This document shows positions 7,859-14,103 of a DNA stretch of 14,103 nucleotides, in pieces. This DNA is from Actinomycetota bacterium (lineage in GTDB: Bacteria > Actinomycetota > Actinomycetes > Nanopelagicales > Nanopelagicaceae), in contig WLNN01000015.1 of NCBI GenBank assembly GCA_009699765.1, positions 1 through 14,103 on the forward strand, read 5' to 3'. Both the position numbers and the translations under genes were made by a program. How positions within the stretch are numbered: position 1 is the stretch's first letter; each line of letters starts with the position of its first letter. The notes below the pieces were generated by a model. The model was not told where the DNA came from and searched no databases. It was given only the letters and a program-made list of their open reading frames with translations.

Positions 7859-9778
7859 TTAGCCTACTGTGATGGTAACTGAACTGCCACGTTTAACCTT
7901 TGTGCCGACTTTAGGCAGGATATTTGTGACTTTCTTGACCGCCTTCTTACCGATTTTCTTGACTACGACATTGAGTCCAAGATCACGAAGAGCTCTTACC
8001 GCTCTAATTTCTTCAATCGAATAAAGATTCGGGATGTAAGAGTATTGCGAACCTTTTGAAACCACTATTGATATTGCGGCGCCTTTATTTGCGGACGCAC
8101 CGCCAGCAGGGGTTTGTGCAATAACTTCACCGGCAAGTTTTGTCTCACTATAGGCATATGTAGAAGTTACTTTGAATCCAGCATCAGTTAATTCATTGAG
8201 CGCTTGCTCGCCACTTTTACCAAGATATGAAGCTAGGGCAACTTGCTCGATTCCCTTAGAGATTGTGAGGGTTACTGTTGTATTCCGCTTTACTTTGCGA
8301 CCAATTTCAGGTGAAGCGCTAATTACAAAACCATTAGGAACGGAGGAATCAAAGACTTCGATGCTAGTTGCAAGTTTCAAAGGTGATTTTAGAATAAGTC
8401 GCGATGCTGCTTCTGGAGTTAAACCTTTAACTGCAGGAATTACATAGCGTTCCGGACCTTTTGAAATAATAAGTTTTACGGCGCCGCCTTGATCAACTTT
8501 TCCGCCACCTGCTGGATCAGATTCGATTACGCGATCTGCTTCAATCTCTTCGCTAAAACGTCTTTCGACAATCTCTGAAGTAAGCCCTAGCGGACTTAGG
8601 GCTGCAGTGACTTCTGCCTGTGTTGCCCCAACTGTCGACGGAACTACGACCCTAGAGCCTGGACCAATCAGGATGTACCAGCCTGAAATTCCAAGAACAA
8701 CAGCTAGGCCGGCAGCGATATATCGATTTCGGCGTACACGTTTACTTACTTTCTTGCGTCGAGCTACCTGCGAAGTGGTTTCCTTGACTACCTCTACTGG
8801 TTTTTCTTCTTCGATCTTTGGAATTTGAGTAGTCATCTCTTTAATTCTCTTACGAAGCGATTTCTGCTTCTTTGCTGGACGCATTGGTTGAATCGGAATA
8901 TCTAGTTCAAGGCTAAGTTGATTCTCTTTTGGATTTAGACGTGCATTAATTGCACTAAGAAGAGAATGGAATTCAGAGGCGTCACGAGGGCGCTCATCTG
9001 CATCCACCGCGGTAGCTTTTTGAATCAAATCATCGAGATCTGATGGAAAATCTGAAACCAGAGTACTCACTCGAGGCACTCGGTCGTTTACGTGCATGTA
9101 AGCAATTTGTATTGGTTCATCGCCTTCAAATGGTTTCTTGCCTGTGAAGATTTCAAAAGCCGTAATGCCAACCGCATAAACATCCGATCGTGAATCTGCA
9201 ATTCCACGTTGAACTTGTTCGGGAGAGAGGTAGGAGACGCTTCCAAGAATCACACTGGATTCGGCGGTCATTGTCGTTCCAAGTAGAGGCCCTTTAGCCA
9301 AACCAAAGTCAGCAATCTTGATGCGGCCTTCACGTGAGACCAGAATATTCTCTGGCTTAATATCGCGATGAACGATTCCGACTCTGTGCGCGGCACTCAG
9401 CGCACTTAATACCGGTAGCAAAAAGCGAATTCCGTCACGATAGGAAAGTCGCCCCTGCTCATTGAGATAATCGCGCAAAGTATGACCTTCGACCATCTCC
9501 ATCACGATAAAGACTGCTGGAGTTCCGCTCTGATTCCAACCTTGATCTTGGACTGCAACAATATTTGGATGCGATAAGGCAGCGGCGGCTTTCGCTTCGC
9601 GAATAAATCGTTCGACGAACTGCTCATCTTGCGCAAGATGAGGGTGCATGATTTTTACTGCAACTTTACGGTCTAGGCGAGTGTCAAAGCCTTCGTAAAT
9701 GCTCGCCATTCCACCGGTGCCTATTTGACGTAGCAGCTGATAGCGCCCATCAATAAGTTCTCCGGTGAGGTCTGACAC
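7859..9778 (-). CDS. Serine/threonine protein kinase with four extracellular PASTA domains (PknB/PknL type)
   Basis: A transmembrane Hanks-type kinase of 639 aa. Kinase domain about 13-275: glycine loop GTGGMASIYEG (20-30), Lys42 in VAVKI, catalytic loop HRDIKPEN (137-144), DFG (157-159), an activation loop with Thr168/Thr169/Thr171, and GSVSYLSPEQ (179-188; most relatives have GT at the start of this motif). A basic juxtamembrane stretch (about 300-352) is followed by one membrane helix (about 353-372). Four PASTA repeats follow, at about 376-440, 444-508, 512-576 and 579-639, which in relatives sense muropeptides or lipid II. Lying close to class II DAHP synthase and isoprenyl synthase genes suggests a PknL orthologue, although mycobacterial PknL lacks PASTA. 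The GTG start at 9778 has no Shine-Dalgarno but a well-placed -10 box. Confidence 0.94.
   Translation of the reverse strand: MSDLTGELIDGRYQLLRQIGTGGMASIYEGFDTRLDRKVAVKIMHPHLAQDEQFVERFIREAKAAAALSHPNIVAVQDQGWNQSGTPAVFIVMEMVEGHTLRDYLNEQGRLSYRDGIRFLLPVLSALSAAHRVGIVHRDIKPENILVSREGRIKIADFGLAKGPLLGTTMTAESSVILGSVSYLSPEQVQRGIADSRSDVYAVGITAFEIFTGKKPFEGDEPIQIAYMHVNDRVPRVSTLVSDFPSDLDDLIQKATAVDADERPRDASEFHSLLSAINARLNPKENQLSLELDIPIQPMRPAKKQKSLRKRIKEMTTQIPKIEEEKPVEVVKETTSQVARRKKVSKRVRRNRYIAAGLAVVLGISGWYILIGPGSRVVVPSTVGATQAEVTAALSPLGLTSEIVERRFSEEIEADRVIESDPAGGGKVDQGGAVKLIISKGPERYVIPAVKGLTPEAASRLILKSPLKLATSIEVFDSSVPNGFVISASPEIGRKVKRNTTVTLTISKGIEQVALASYLGKSGEQALNELTDAGFKVTSTYAYSETKLAGEVIAQTPAGGASANKGAAISIVVSKGSQYSYIPNLYSIEEIRAVRALRDLGLNVVVKKIGKKAVKKVTNILPKVGTKVKRGSSVTITVG
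7861..7866 (-). promoter_or_regulatory. Candidate leaderless promoter -10 box (TAGGCT) of nfo
   Basis: On the minus strand TAGGCT ends 6 nt before the GTG start of nfo at 7854. It is embedded in the last codons of the upstream kinase gene and leads directly into its TAA stop. The hexamer and spacing are identical to those before the DAHP synthase gene. No -35 was identified. Confidence 0.55.
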
Positions 9779-9784
9779 GCCGAA

Positions 9785-9790
9785 ATTCTA
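9785..9790 (-). promoter_or_regulatory. Candidate leaderless promoter -10 box (TAGAAT) of the Ser/Thr kinase gene
   Basis: On the minus strand TAGAAT ends 6 nt before the GTG at 9778; its TAG is the stop codon of the upstream P-loop kinase gene. Spacing equals that at the DAHP synthase and nfo genes. No Shine-Dalgarno and no clear -35 are present. Confidence 0.55.
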
Positions 9791-10324
9791 GTTTGTCAGG
9801 ACGAAATCAGAGGCGTTCTGAGAGTCGTTATCGAGAAAGTGTTGGGCTTGCTTAATCAGCCAAGAATTCATCTGATGGGATATCGCATCACCATCGCGAA
9901 GAAGTACTCGTTCAACTCCAACTGCAGGGTCGATATCAATCCAAATGCTTGCTGTTACAAACTCTCTGATAACTAAGTGAGAAGAGGCGACGCCTTCAAG
10001 AATAAGGAGTTGGCATGGTGGGACTCCTTGTACGGCTCCATATTTTCCTGTGCCCCAGTTATAGATTGATAATGAGATTCTCTGGGATTTTTGATGGGCT
10101 CTACAGGCACCAATTAGCGCATCAGTGAGATGGTGATCAAATGGAGTTTCCCAACCGTTGTAGAGATCATCCATGTGAAGGGTGGTGCATTTATACTTCA
10201 GCGACATCGCAGTGCTGATGTGTTCTGCAAGAGTCGTCTTTCCAGCACCTGCAGGGCCATCAATTGTGATGATGGGACGTGCAGTTGTTTTACAGAGATC
10301 GAATAGCGCGTCGATGAGTTCCAT
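9788..10324 (-). CDS. P-loop kinase, uridine-kinase-like; candidate kinase for the PnuT substrate
   Basis: A 178-aa small-molecule kinase of the uridine kinase/phosphoribulokinase fold. It has Walker A GPAGAGKT (23-30), the HMDDLYNGW acceptor-site motif (50-58, Asp52/Asp53) typical of actinobacterial proteins annotated 'uridine kinase', LILEGV (107-112), and a lid-like region with RDGD (143-146). The frame stays open up to 10456, but the ATG at 10324 is chosen because it has GGAG 8 nt upstream and removes a 44-residue unconserved extension buried in the transporter gene. The remaining overlap with that gene is 35 bp. Because the preceding transporter is under a TPP riboswitch, the substrate may be thiamine or a precursor. 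Nucleoside or nicotinamide-riboside kinase activity are alternatives. The fold call is firm; the substrate is unknown. Confidence 0.82.
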   Translation of the reverse strand: MELIDALFDLCKTTARPIITIDGPAGAGKTTLAEHISTAMSLKYKCTTLHMDDLYNGWETPFDHHLTDALIGACRAHQKSQRISLSIYNWGTGKYGAVQGVPPCQLLILEGVASSHLVIREFVTASIWIDIDPAVGVERVLLRDGDAISHQMNSWLIKQAQHFLDNDSQNASDFVLTN

Positions 10325-10880
10325 ACCAAGAGCTCCATCCCATAGCGGCCATGATCGTAAATGCAATATAGAGAACTGTTGTAAAGAGTAGTCCTTGTGA
10401 AGCGTAGAGAGCGACATATCCTGCATCCACAACGAGCCAAAGCGGCCAGTTGTCATACTTTTGATAGACCATCAAAAGTTGCGCCGCAATACTTCCAAAC
10501 AAGAGCAATGAATCTTGAGTTGCTGCAGCGGCACCAATGTTCTTGAGAAATGGTGCAAGTAAGAGCGTCGCCAACAAAATTGCAACGATTGTGTAAATGC
10601 GATATCTATTTTTAAATGGACCGGGCTTAGCGCCAGTTGCTTCCCATCCAAACCAACCCGCCACTGCCGCTGCAATGAAAACTAATTGAAGAGCTGCACT
10701 TGCATAGAGATCGAATTGGATAAAAAAGAGGCCATAGAGCGCACTGCTTAGCGCCCACCATGGCCAAGTAATTCTCTTGCCGGTAATACCGAGACCTACT
10801 CCGATAAATGATGTAGTCGCTGCAAGAAATTCGAGATAAGAGACTTGATAGCTCCAGGCAGTGAAAAAAGTAGATGACAT
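10290..10880 (-). CDS. pnuT: PnuC-family vitamin transporter, probably thiamine transporter PnuT
   Basis: A 196-aa inner-membrane facilitator of the PnuC family. It has about seven hydrophobic segments, the AGWFGWE motif (74-80) and the substrate-site region YDNWPLWLVVD (142-152) followed by GLLFTTVLYIAFTIMAAMGWSSW. PnuC proteins carry nicotinamide riboside, but family members PnuT (thiamine), PnuX (riboflavin) and PnuN (deoxynucleosides) are distinguished mainly by gene context. Here a TPP riboswitch lies immediately upstream, which points to thiamine. Family members move substrate by facilitated diffusion and rely on intracellular phosphorylation, which fits the overlapping P-loop kinase gene. 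The ATG at 10880 is chosen because upstream in-frame TTG (10901) and ATG (10895) codons lie inside the aptamer. Specificity is inferred, not shown. Confidence 0.87.
   Translation of the reverse strand: MSSTFFTAWSYQVSYLEFLAATTSFIGVGLGITGKRITWPWWALSSALYGLFFIQFDLYASAALQLVFIAAAVAGWFGWEATGAKPGPFKNRYRIYTIVAILLATLLLAPFLKNIGAAAATQDSLLLFGSIAAQLLMVYQKYDNWPLWLVVDAGYVALYASQGLLFTTVLYIAFTIMAAMGWSSWYGTHRRAIRSL
10333..10336 (-). promoter_or_regulatory. Ribosome-binding site of the P-loop kinase gene (GGAG)
   Basis: On the minus strand GGAG lies 8 nt before the ATG at 10324, inside the 3' end of the transporter gene. It decides this start over the longer open frame. Confidence 0.65.
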
Positions 10881-10887
10881 ATATAAA

Positions 10888-10978
10888 CTCGACATTCTCA
10901 ATCCGCATTACCGGACTGGTCAAACGGTCGATCTCATTGTTGAGATCCTCTCAGCCACCATGGCTCCCGTGTGTTGAA
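10888..10978 (-). ncRNA. TPP riboswitch (THI box)
   Basis: Read on the minus strand, the 91 nt between crtB and the transporter carry the conserved THI-box blocks in order: ACACGGGAGCC (10972-10962), GGCTGAGAGG (10956-10947), a perfect 7-bp P3a stem GATCTCA/TGAGATC with loop ACAA (10947-10930 region), CGACCGTTTGACC (10930-10918), and TCCGGTAATGCGGA (10915-10902) followed by GAGAATGT. The 5' half is almost identical to actinobacterial THI boxes. The 3' half is shortened (ACCAGTCC where ACCTGATCC is usual). P1 can form from TTCAACA (10978-10972) with TGTCGAG (10894-10888). The P1 3' strand contains the GAG that serves as the weak Shine-Dalgarno of the transporter gene (7 nt to ATG). No terminator hairpin or T-run follows, so control is probably translational. 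Confidence 0.9.
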
Positions 10979-10980
10979 CT

Positions 10981-11859
10981 TTAGCGCATGCGAAGGAAAA
11001 GTGTCTGCAGAAATGCAACTCCAGCTACTCGAAATCTGCGCCATTGAGATGTGGTTGCTCGAGTTGTAAATACGTCATAGCCATTAGCTTCGATCTCATC
11101 AACGATGCCGCAATACAACTCACTTGCTGCGCGGATGCACGGACGAGATATTGGATCAAGAAATTGGATTCCGGTTTCGGCAGTTGCCTGCAATTCGCGG
11201 ACTCTAGCAATTTGATACTTGAGCGCTTCTACTATCTCTGGAGTTAGTTTGCGTTGTAACAACATTTCTTCAGAGACGCCGAAACGAGCTAGATCATCAA
11301 GTGGCATATAGATTCGTCCGCGCTCGATATCCTCATCGATATCTCTAATGAAGTTAGCTAATTGAAATGCTGCACCCAGAGCGCTTGCTGCTTCAATTGC
11401 GCGTGGATCGCTATAGCCAAGGATTGGAAGCATCTCTAGACCAATAACGACTGCCGAACCATAAACATATGTCATCAAATCTTCAAAAGTTTTGTAGCGC
11501 GTTACAGTTAAATCCATCTCCATCGAAACCATAAAAGCGTCAAAGTATTCGAGCGGAATCTTGTACTTCTTGACTGTATCAACAAGAGCTCTACCAATTA
11601 GATCGCTACTCTCTCCTGTACGTAAATCGGATAGCACCGAGTCACCCCATGTACGAAGAACCTGGGCCTTCTCGTGCGGAGATAGCGTCGAGGCAAGATC
11701 ATCAACAATCTCATCGGCGTAGCGCGCGAAACCATAAAGAGCATGCACTGGTGGCCGCTTTGCAGAGGGAAGAAGAAGTGTTGCTAAGTAGTACGTCTTG
11801 CCGTGAAGTGCATTAAGTCGTTTGCACTCCTCGTACGATTCTTGCAACAAGTCAGACAT
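10981..11859 (-). CDS. crtB: Phytoene synthase (15-cis), squalene/phytoene synthase family
   Basis: Condenses two GGPP to 15-cis-phytoene, the first committed carotenoid step. The 292-aa sequence has the two Asp-rich Mg-diphosphate motifs, DEIVDD (49-54, DxxxD) and the second in NFIRDIDEDIERGRIYMP (Asp173 and Asp177), plus the substrate-pocket segment YVYGSAVVIGLEM (131-143). Length is standard. Its ATG directly follows the crtI stop with no gap (TAAATG), so translation is coupled; only a distant GGGA is seen upstream. The THI-box aptamer begins 3 nt after its stop, so any read-through transcript runs straight into the riboswitch. Confidence 0.95.
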   Translation of the reverse strand: MSDLLQESYEECKRLNALHGKTYYLATLLLPSAKRPPVHALYGFARYADEIVDDLASTLSPHEKAQVLRTWGDSVLSDLRTGESSDLIGRALVDTVKKYKIPLEYFDAFMVSMEMDLTVTRYKTFEDLMTYVYGSAVVIGLEMLPILGYSDPRAIEAASALGAAFQLANFIRDIDEDIERGRIYMPLDDLARFGVSEEMLLQRKLTPEIVEALKYQIARVRELQATAETGIQFLDPISRPCIRAASELYCGIVDEIEANGYDVFTTRATTSQWRRFRVAGVAFLQTLFLRMR

Positions 11860-13344
11860 TTACTTAACTGGTCCCACAATGCGCTCTGCTGCAAGGCGAC
11901 CCGAGATGAGAACCATTGGGACTCCAACTCCAGGTTGTGTTCCACTTCCGGCAAATACAACGTTGTCGAATCCAGCTGCGATATTTCGAGGGCGGAAAGG
12001 TCCGGTCTGGAAGAAGGTATGCGCACTTGCAAAAGGCGCACCTTGCTCCATTCCTTGTGCTTGCCAATCCAGGGGAGTGGTCATGTGCTCGGTCTCGATA
12101 GCATCACCAAATCCATGATAGCCACGAGCTTCAAGAACTCTAATCATTTCATCGCGATAGCGAGACTTCTCTTTAGTCCAATCAATGTCAGCGCTGAGGT
12201 TGGGAGTAGGGAAAAGCACGTAATAAGACTCTTTTCCTGCAGGCGCAAGTGATTTATCGTCATGAGAAGGCACGGTGACAAGAACAGAAGGGTCTGTCAT
12301 CAGGATCTTCTTCTTAATGAGTTCATCAAATACGCCATCCCATGATTCACCGAAGTGGATATTGTGGTGAGCAATATGGTCGTAGTGCTTTGAAGATCCA
12401 ACAAGCAAAGTTACGCATGATGGAGAGTACTTAAGACGTTTAATTGAAAGTGGCTCTTTGCCGAGTAAGTCTTTCCAGACAACAGGCAAATCTGGATTCA
12501 TCACTATTGCATCGCACTCAAAACGCTCACCCTTATCGGTAATTGCTGCAGTCACACGTGAGCCACTTTTTTCTAGCGAGGTGACAGATGAGTTATAAAT
12601 AAATTTTACGCCGTGCTTCTGCGCGGCGGCTGCCAGAGCTCGAGGAACTGCATGCATTCCTCCCTTAGGGAAGAAGACACCATTTACTGAGTCCATATAT
12701 GCGATAACTGCATAGATTGCGAGTGCCTGTTGTGGACTGACTCCGGCATACATTGCTTGGAAAGAATAAACCTTCTGCAGGCGAGGATCTTTTAGAAATT
12801 GATTCACCTTGGGTTGCAAGTGTCTAAAGCCACCAAGTGCAATCAAGCGTGCAAGATTTGGTGTCAAAAGATTGAGCGGTGAATCAATATTTCGATCGAT
12901 AAAGTCGTTCATCTCATACTTGTATAACTTGGTTACAAAATCAACGTAATTGCGATATCCAGCGGCCTCAGTGGCTGAAACCTTTTCACGGATTTCTTGT
13001 TCCATCGCTTTTGTATCTGCATGAACATCAATTTGTGATCCATCGGCGTAAAAAGCGCGATAGAGAGGCGAGACTGGCATGAGCTCTAGCCAATCTTTCA
13101 TATCTTCGCCAACTGCTGAGAATGCATCTTGAATCAACGATGGCATGGTTAGAACTGTTGGGCCCGTATCAAATGCATATCCATCTTTATTTAGCAGACC
13201 ATTGCGACCACCTGGTACGGATTCACGTTCGATAACAGTTACATCGCGACCTGCCCCAGCAAGACGCAGGGCAGCGCTAAGTCCTGCCAATCCTGCGCCT
13301 ACTACAACAACTTTCTGCGATGGGCCTTTGATGCGTTTAACCAT
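11860..13344 (-). CDS. crtI: Phytoene desaturase, CrtI type (FAD-dependent)
   Basis: Oxidises phytoene stepwise to neurosporene/lycopene-type polyenes at the membrane, using FAD. The 494-aa protein starts with the Rossmann dinucleotide-binding motif VVVVGAGLAGLSAALRL (12-28; G16, G18, G21), the ribose-binding Glu39, and PGGRNG and FDTGPTVLTMP typical of CrtI. The C-terminus has the bacterial-type desaturase signature, here GTQPGVGVPMVLISGRLAAERI. The number of desaturation steps and the final product cannot be read from the sequence. Its start overlaps the crtE stop by one base (TAATG), preceded by GGAG 6 nt upstream (13351-13354). It lies between crtE and crtB in one operon. Confidence 0.96.
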   Translation of the reverse strand: MVKRIKGPSQKVVVVGAGLAGLSAALRLAGAGRDVTVIERESVPGGRNGLLNKDGYAFDTGPTVLTMPSLIQDAFSAVGEDMKDWLELMPVSPLYRAFYADGSQIDVHADTKAMEQEIREKVSATEAAGYRNYVDFVTKLYKYEMNDFIDRNIDSPLNLLTPNLARLIALGGFRHLQPKVNQFLKDPRLQKVYSFQAMYAGVSPQQALAIYAVIAYMDSVNGVFFPKGGMHAVPRALAAAAQKHGVKFIYNSSVTSLEKSGSRVTAAITDKGERFECDAIVMNPDLPVVWKDLLGKEPLSIKRLKYSPSCVTLLVGSSKHYDHIAHHNIHFGESWDGVFDELIKKKILMTDPSVLVTVPSHDDKSLAPAGKESYYVLFPTPNLSADIDWTKEKSRYRDEMIRVLEARGYHGFGDAIETEHMTTPLDWQAQGMEQGAPFASAHTFFQTGPFRPRNIAAGFDNVVFAGSGTQPGVGVPMVLISGRLAAERIVGPVK

Positions 13345-14103
13345 TATGCGCTCCGTTTTACTGCGCTAAGCGCAATGTGTGTGAGAAATTCTCTCGATGA
13401 TAGGTGGATTGAAGAATCTTCAATTGCTGTAAGTGATTGATTAGTCAGACTCTCAATCAAATTTTCAACTTTTTCAACTGCGCCAGAGGAAATTATTAGC
13501 GCCCGAAGTTCTTCAATTTTAGATGGTGAAATCTCTGGTTGTCCGAGATGTGCAAGGAGCTCTTTTCGACCCGATTCAGATAGCGCTTCAAGGGACATCG
13601 CGATGAGGACTGTTCGCTTGCCTTCACGTAAATCATCTCCGGCTGGCTTTCCGGTCACCGTTGGGTCTCCGAATATTCCAAGCAAGTCATCGCGCAATTG
13701 AAACGCCTCGCCAAGCGGAAGGCCGTAACGAGAGAGCGCATCGAGAATTGAAGAGTTGCTTGAAGGATTTCCAATTACTGCGCCGATATGAAGCGGACGT
13801 TCAATTGTATATTTTCCTGATTTGTAGCGTGCAATCCGCAATGAACGATCTGCGCTATAGGTAGTCTCACCCGATTCACGAATGTCCAAATACTGACCTG
13901 CCATGAGTTCGATTCGCATCTCATCATGAATTACATGTGCCGCAAGAAGAGAGGGAGTTGATATTCCTGATGTGTTGAGCATTTGATCAGACCAAACAAG
14001 TGCGAGATCACCAAGAAGAACCGCAGCCGCTTCACCAAATTGAGCAGCAAGACCATTCATTGCTGATGATTGATGTAGATTTTCAAAATGACGATGAATT
14101 GCC
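13344..14103 (-). CDS. crtE: Geranylgeranyl/polyprenyl diphosphate synthase, N-terminus beyond window edge
   Basis: Builds GGPP from IPP and allylic diphosphates for CrtB. The frame stays open to the right edge (AIHRHFENLHQSSA before the internal Met at 14060), so about 252 C-terminal residues are visible and about 100, including the first Asp-rich motif (FARM), lie outside. Visible marks are FGEAAAVLLGDLALVWSD, the GQYLDIRESG segment, the YTIERPLHIGAVIG helix, and the second Asp-rich motif in QLRDDLLGIFGDP, followed by TGKPAGDDLREGKRTVL. The style matches actinobacterial IdsA2/CrtE proteins of about 350 aa. Chain length is set by residues before the FARM, which are not visible; a GGPP product is inferred from the adjacent crtI and crtB. 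It is the first visible gene of the crtE-crtI-crtB run. Confidence 0.93.
   Translation of the reverse strand, partial: AIHRHFENLHQSSAMNGLAAQFGEAAAVLLGDLALVWSDQMLNTSGISTPSLLAAHVIHDEMRIELMAGQYLDIRESGETTYSADRSLRIARYKSGKYTIERPLHIGAVIGNPSSNSSILDALSRYGLPLGEAFQLRDDLLGIFGDPTVTGKPAGDDLREGKRTVLIAMSLEALSESGRKELLAHLGQPEISPSKIEELRALIISSGAVEKVENLIESLTNQSLTAIEDSSIHLSSREFLTHIALSAVKRSA
13351..13354 (-). promoter_or_regulatory. Ribosome-binding site of crtI (GGAG)
   Basis: On the minus strand GGAG lies 6 nt before the crtI ATG, inside the last codons of crtE. It supports the one-base TAATG overlap as the true junction. Confidence 0.65.

Follow-up and report, generated by a model that had tools for sequence, protein, structure and literature searches.

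A TPP-class aptamer without the pyrophosphate pocket upstream of a predicted thiamine transporter gene in freshwater bacteria

The window, that is, the whole stretch of 14,103 nucleotides of contig WLNN01000015.1 that was analysed, carries a TPP-class aptamer in front of a Pnu-type transporter gene. In this aptamer and its relatives, the internal loop that bears C77 and G78 is replaced by a covarying helix, and the pyrimidine- and thiazole-binding half is retained. The PnuT proposal and the THI element were already known; what is added here is the loss of the pyrophosphate pocket, which would account for the low score of these RNAs against the Rfam family RF00059. We propose, giving it about an even chance, that the aptamer would be functional on the TPP scaffold but with an altered ligand, thiamine or thiamine monophosphate (TMP), in place of TPP or in addition to it. 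It would control an uptake operon. The original prediction had described a TPP riboswitch in the gap before the transporter. All the THI-box blocks that it quoted are found there on the minus strand and the TPP-class aptamer is confirmed, but the label itself oversimplifies, since this RNA lacks the pyrophosphate pocket. The features are as follows.

9788 to 10324, minus strand: P-loop kinase of the uridine kinase/pantothenate kinase fold (PF00485, 28 bits), overlapping the end of pnuT
10290 to 10895, minus strand: pnuT, predicted Pnu-type thiamine transporter (PF04973, 122 bits; tree)
10879 to 10980, minus strand: TPP-class (THI-box) aptamer, loop-less P4/P5 variant (RF00059, 40.1 bits, E 1.6e-6)
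10897 to 10919, minus strand: fused P4/P5 hairpin, a near-continuous helix without the 2x2 internal loop
10906 to 10911, minus strand: L5, GUAAUG, within the fused P4/P5 hairpin
10930 to 10947, minus strand: P3a stem-loop, both sides of which vary in five of six pairs
10949 to 10953, minus strand: UGAGA loop (U39-A43, E. coli thiM numbering) of the pyrimidine-binding half, invariant in 60/60

The aptamer and its fused P4/P5 helix

A cmscan of positions 10700-11150 placed the RF00059 match at 10980-10879(-), spanning model positions 1-105. The minus-strand search suggested with the original prediction thus returns a match, but its 40.1 bits remain below the gathering score of 54.3, and an Rfam scan of the window at the gathering threshold gave zero matches. 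RF00059 run against the entire genome at E<=10 gave no match either, probably because the first filter of the search passes the element over. Among 19 PnuT-positive acI genomes searched with RF00059, none reached gathering, the best score being 45.7 bits. We therefore rely on our own covariance model, R1, built from an alignment of the aptamers of 60 relatives (out of 70 non-redundant ones). R1 scores 90.3 bits at 10880-10979, the window sequence being part of its training set, and matches 195 of the 201 genomes of the order, including 180 of the 181 PnuT-positive ones; the exception, G086, ends at a contig edge. Leaders were read at 90 pnuT loci drawn from these 181 genomes (the 30 best matches and 60 hand-picked for genus spread), and the whole RNA was present at 88 of them, the other two being broken by contig ends.

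Covariation in the 60 aligned aptamers scored 0.341, the mean of the shuffled alignments being 0.149, and none of 500 shuffles was as high, although related rows inflate this value. When the pairing partners were slid, covariation reached at most 0.116; 94.0% of the cells of the same alignment are paired. The helices with comparative support are P2, P3, P3a and the fused P4/P5. The window leader folded alone is unremarkable (z -1.07), so the structural support for the aptamer is comparative. Altogether, this is an RF00059-type element far beyond chance. Among the matches listed, the species genomes holding the variant are those of Candidatus Nanopelagicales, Nanopelagicus and Planktophila, with one record titled acI, and we take these names to denote the acI group of freshwater actinobacteria. 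The same pattern was seen in records titled Bifidobacterium breve, Fonsibacter and Flavobacteriia (L095, L098, L135, L152, L154, L159), which are probably mislabelled metagenome bins.

In the canonical riboswitch, C77 and G78 hydrogen-bond the pyrophosphate, the pyrimidine is held by G40, G19, G42 and A43, and the thiazole is touched by G72 (PMC7824784; see PMC3764141). We mapped the thiM numbering from a thiM sequence, and it matches the naming of the bases in these two papers. In canonical aptamers a 2x2 internal loop separates P4 from P5, and each of the two strands counts 10 bases. In the acI variant the 5' strand is shortened in all 60 aligned aptamers, to 8 bases in 59 and to 9 in one; in a larger set the corresponding numbers are 87 and 1 of 88, and 79 of these 88 are predicted to fold into eight base pairs with either no bulge or a single bulged base. 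A CG at the place of C77-G78, the two bases that follow P5, occurs in 3/60 only (L035, L075 and L076), and there it could pair with the opposite strand in two cases and only partially in L035. U59 is kept in 1/60 and, by alignment column, A80 in 3/60 and G60 in 51/60; the window aptamer retains only G60 out of U59, G60, C77, G78 and A80. The comparison aptamers, in contrast, have U59, G60 and A80 in 68/68 and C77-G78 in 64/68, a set for which 74 other aptamers were examined, six loop-less ones were omitted by choice and G432 was counted twice. The pair that replaces the loop (columns 69-87) is AU in 37 aptamers, CG in 9, GC in 8, GU in 1 and UG in 1, and is unpaired in 4; the former pocket therefore has no fixed base. 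The other half is invariant: G19, U39-A43, A56, U68-U71 and G72 are each found in 60/60. The UAAU of L5, the loop that would dock on P3, is likewise conserved together with G72 in 60/60. We found no earlier account of why these aptamers score low in the literature searched, from which most subscription journals were out of reach.

Loop-less forms and the possible ligand

The 20 genomes of the order that lack PnuT offer a comparison within the same group. R1 matches 15 of them, with E-values of at least 8.3e-13, as against 8.1e-17 or less in PnuT-positive genomes (except the truncated G173), R1 having been trained on PnuT-positive sequences. Thirteen of the 15 pass RF00059 gathering, and C77-G78 is kept in 20 of the 21 aptamers read from them, a count that leaves out a second R1 match in G081. 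The remaining one, the same-family aptamer L266 of G089, lies before a thiamine-binding-protein gene and has UA in place of C77-G78. A one-base 5' deletion was found in three of the 21: the two thiC aptamers, in G007 and in G044, and that of G089. The genes behind the aptamers of PnuT-negative genomes are thiC (2 genomes), thiO (5 genomes; TIGR02352 over cut-off), cytX-like permeases (4 genomes; TIGR02358 near 200 bits, under cut-off) and thiamine ABC binding proteins (9 genomes; TIGR01254 over cut-off); G044 also has a permease with PF09819, presumably YkoE, behind an aptamer. Since C77-G78 is kept in 8 of 9 aptamers of same-family thiamine ABC importers, thiamine import alone does not demand a change of the pocket.

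Forty other Actinomycetes aptamers taken from the R1 list comprise 2 loop-less, 18 full-length, 18 with a one-base 5' deletion and 2 irregular ones. The P4/P5 region therefore tolerates change, as 18 of the 38 aptamers without full loop loss carry the one-base deletion and keep C77-G78; these (among L303-L342) are possibly an intermediate form. The loop-less pair lies before pnuT in G239 and before thiO in G265. Further loop-less aptamers precede pnuT and the kinase in G311, a cytX-like permease in G278 and G305, and thiO in G426. The last genome holds two canonical aptamers and the loop-less one (L281, L287 and L275), a natural side-by-side comparison. In a pattern scan of the phylum, 13 of 396 genomes matched; eight of them retain the 3' side and were judged not loop-less, and three genomes of one genus (f81) were judged loop-less. 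In one of these, G585, the aptamer precedes thiT (TIGR02357, 120 bits) and TPK. Because loop-less forms occur in scattered lineages and gene contexts, the loop seems to have been lost several times in the phylum, often but not only before thiamine transporters.

What, then, would the acI aptamer sense? The pocket is gone and the pyrimidine/thiazole half is kept, so the ligand would most likely be a thiamine vitamer for which no pyrophosphate is strictly needed. This preferred explanation is based on structure, conservation, gene context and the missing pathway genes. The loop-less forms in front of thiO (G265, G426) and of cytX-like permeases (G278, G305), which are ordinary thiamine-pathway genes, count against an altered ligand. 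They fit a sensor of TPP in which the shortened P4/P5 would set the pyrophosphate against the helix groove, where Mg2+ and the backbone would hold it, so that only the architecture would differ. We consider such a sensor quite possible, although short of an even chance. Indeed, A56 and L5, which make scaffold contacts, do not vary, and G426 combines one loop-less with two canonical aptamers. On the other hand, the former pocket has no fixed base at all, and a weaker charge on the tail of the ligand lowers the affinity by two to four orders of magnitude (PMC7824784), which implies that canonical recognition leans on the pyrophosphate pocket.

A decaying aptamer, or one that senses another pyrimidine compound such as HMP, is improbable. 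The score below Rfam gathering would agree with decay and the full conservation of the pyrimidine half with HMP, but the strong covariation and the order-wide retention argue against decay. Moreover, the gaps in thiamine synthesis expected in the original prediction are there: ThiC is absent from all 24 PnuT genomes tested and ThiE gave fragment matches only (in G003, G013, G032 and G017), so these cells would gain little from HMP.

The pnuT operon and a candidate thiamine kinase

A vitamer of thiamine as the ligand is also suggested by the genes that follow the aptamer. The order on the minus strand is crtB, the aptamer, the PnuC-family gene, the overlapping P-loop kinase, a PASTA-domain protein kinase and nfo. 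Carotenoid genes occupy positions 10981-14102 directly upstream, with phytoene synthase recognized by PF00494 and a desaturase-like and a prenyl synthase-like gene by eye; pnuT with its leader is flanked by crtB on one side and the kinase-pknB pair on the other. The pnuT start is probably the ATG at 10880-10878, because many homologues align only from residue four to six onward. Between positions 9700 and 12000 there is no terminator-like site (shuffled mean 2.5) and one promoter-like site (shuffled mean 3.2). A purine-rich, Shine-Dalgarno-like stretch lies at most 24 bases after L5 in 56 of 60 leaders; the window's own leader has no clear purine-rich ribosome-binding site. The lack of a terminator-like site together with this stretch suggests that control is probably exerted at translation. 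In a test for a switching P1 helix, no excess of cognate pairing was detected in 84 leaders (p 0.63), nor in 53 other aptamers, of which two are loop-less (p 0.83).

The transporter is present in 181 of the 201 genomes of the order. It scores 69.9 bits against the equivalog TIGR01528 (cut-off 42.45), and NCBIfam naming would therefore make it PnuC. Among 296 genomes of the class, matches split into those with at least 43% identity (acI, G311, G239, G397, G432, G446) and those with at most 33%. In a tree of 48 proteins, for which 25 of the 90 acI rows were hand-chosen and whose PnuT members are all predicted ones, 30 aptamer-linked transporters stand apart from 14 PnuC and 4 PnuX-like proteins on a 100/100 branch; support is 94/63 for the PnuC group and 98/92 for the PnuX-like group, in a tree with some flagged long branches. 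The window protein therefore does not cluster with the nicotinamide riboside (NR)-specific PnuC.

We also fetched 20 other Pnu loci: 14 distant homologues (L377-L390), L391, L392, L393 and L394-L396. A nadR motif is found downstream in 13 of the 14 distant PnuC homologues, and the remaining one, L381, is followed by a Nudix protein that we read as NrtR-like. No Rfam riboswitch at E<=0.01 was found beside these 14. Across all 20 loci, the Rfam matches at this threshold were one FMN and two TPP aptamers only, which does not favour NAD-related regulation of Pnu loci. The two TPP aptamers, of about 65 bits, belong to L391 and L392, homologues of 45-46% identity. The FMN aptamer, of 94 bits, lies at L393 (G017:C1:206500-208700, an acI relative of the same family), beside a second distant Pnu homologue that would be the riboflavin carrier PnuX; a PnuX with an FMN riboswitch was described in one acI strain (Kang et al. 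2017, PMC5301498). L394-L396 are PnuX-like judging by the tree and their neighbouring genes alone. Despite its TIGR01528 score, an ordinary PnuC carrier of nicotinamide riboside is hardly credible, given that the nadR-linked PnuC proteins form a separate group by tree and neighbours and that the aptamer accompanies pnuT at every one of the 90 loci not cut by a contig end.

The identification of the PnuC-like protein as PnuT, advanced in the original prediction, is thus well supported, by inference from the tree, the nadR-linked PnuC neighbours and the missing ThiC and TPK. It had been published before. In each of the four acI genomes that they studied, Kang et al. (2017, PMC5301498) found a THI element upstream of pnuC, and they proposed PnuT, so the central claim of the prediction is correct but known. 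The same paper describes acI as thiamine auxotrophs that lack nearly all thiamine enzymes. ThiL is a small exception to this statement: it was found in 24/24 PnuT genomes tested (G010 just under cut-off), and TPK in none of them. In 40 genomes the counts were TPK 0, ThiL 40 (38 over cut-off) and ThiC 2.

The P-loop kinase at 9788-10324 is a candidate thiamine kinase, because ThiL is present, TPK is absent and the kinase follows import. A tblastn search located it downstream of pnuT on the same strand in 90/90 loci. Its presence tracks thiamine import (34/34 importers, 0/6 others), importers being recognized solely by the gene that the aptamer precedes and four of the six others belonging to one genus. 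The model of the kinase is closest in fold to UCK2 and PanK, and no thiamine kinase appeared among the 50 rows listed by either fold search or VIA-align, a comparison at the level of fold only. In eight relatives without pnuT the kinase precedes pknB, as seen when the kinase loci were read; the link with pnuT in acI may therefore be partly inherited order, which weakens the view that the kinase arrived in acI together with pnuT. What remains in support of the link is the import profile and G311, in which pnuT and the kinase occur together, away from pknB. In two other families (L351, L352, L391, L392) the gene after pnuT encodes a different P-loop kinase, which matched AAA_28 in the two cases tested and would be another candidate thiamine kinase family. 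No report of a thiamine kinase with pnuT was found in the literature searched, subscription journals being mostly inaccessible.

A thiamine-uptake switch and its known counterparts

We propose the following scenario. The aptamer would control a thiamine-uptake operon made of pnuT and the P-loop kinase. PnuT would admit thiamine, the kinase would trap it by conversion to TMP, and ThiL would turn TMP into TPP. The aptamer would sense a vitamer without a strict need for pyrophosphate; when this vitamer is plentiful, the ligand-bound aptamer would close and block the ribosome site, so that pnuT would be shut off and uptake would fall. More tentatively than either reading of the ligand, we suggest a new TPP-riboswitch subclass that would read thiamine or TMP, with several origins in Actinomycetota and fixation in the acI genomes that bear PnuT, together with a new thiamine kinase of the uridine-kinase fold.

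The TPP riboswitch is a widespread and well-studied switch with a two-handed pocket; throughout an entire order of freshwater bacteria, the genomes that bear PnuT have lost one of these hands. Should the ligand indeed be different, this would be, as far as the literature searched goes, the first TPP aptamer with a switched ligand, and it would offer a natural means of sensing free thiamine or TMP. The kinase, if its assignment is true, would complete the route from thiamine to TPP in acI and name the missing kinase. For annotation, the Rfam gathering threshold misses the loop-less RNAs in the 19 PnuT genomes tried, and NCBIfam would give the transporter the name PnuC.

Work on riboswitch variants has reportedly been done by Weinberg et al. 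in 2017. In the literature that we searched, which took in few subscription journals and hence does not prove absence, no ligand-switched or atypical TPP aptamer was found. The available part of one review lists ligand-switched riboswitch variants, TPP not being among them (PMC7266159). That review also covers the HMP-PP riboswitch (thiS motif), with which the proposed switch would share its place as a sensor of the thiamine pathway whose ligand is not TPP. The acI element and its operon can further be set beside several described systems. The HMP-PP riboswitch has an architecture unrelated to that of the acI variant. In the Bacteroides pnuT-tnr3 operon (PMC5613172), as proposed here, a transporter and a thiamine-phosphorylating enzyme are placed behind a TPP riboswitch; the second gene there is a thiamine pyrophosphorylase according to its authors, whereas in acI it is a uridine-kinase-fold protein. 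The THI element before pnuC in acI is the same element before the same gene, with the same proposed PnuT role, and the missing pocket and the kinase are not mentioned in the available part of that report (Kang et al. 2017, PMC5301498). Finally, the acI variant shares with the TPP riboswitch (RF00059) P2, P3, P3a, the UGAGA loop, the UAAU of L5, G72 and the context of thiamine genes. It differs in that the P4/P5 internal loop with C77 and G78 is a helix, U59 and A80 are not conserved, and the score lies below gathering.
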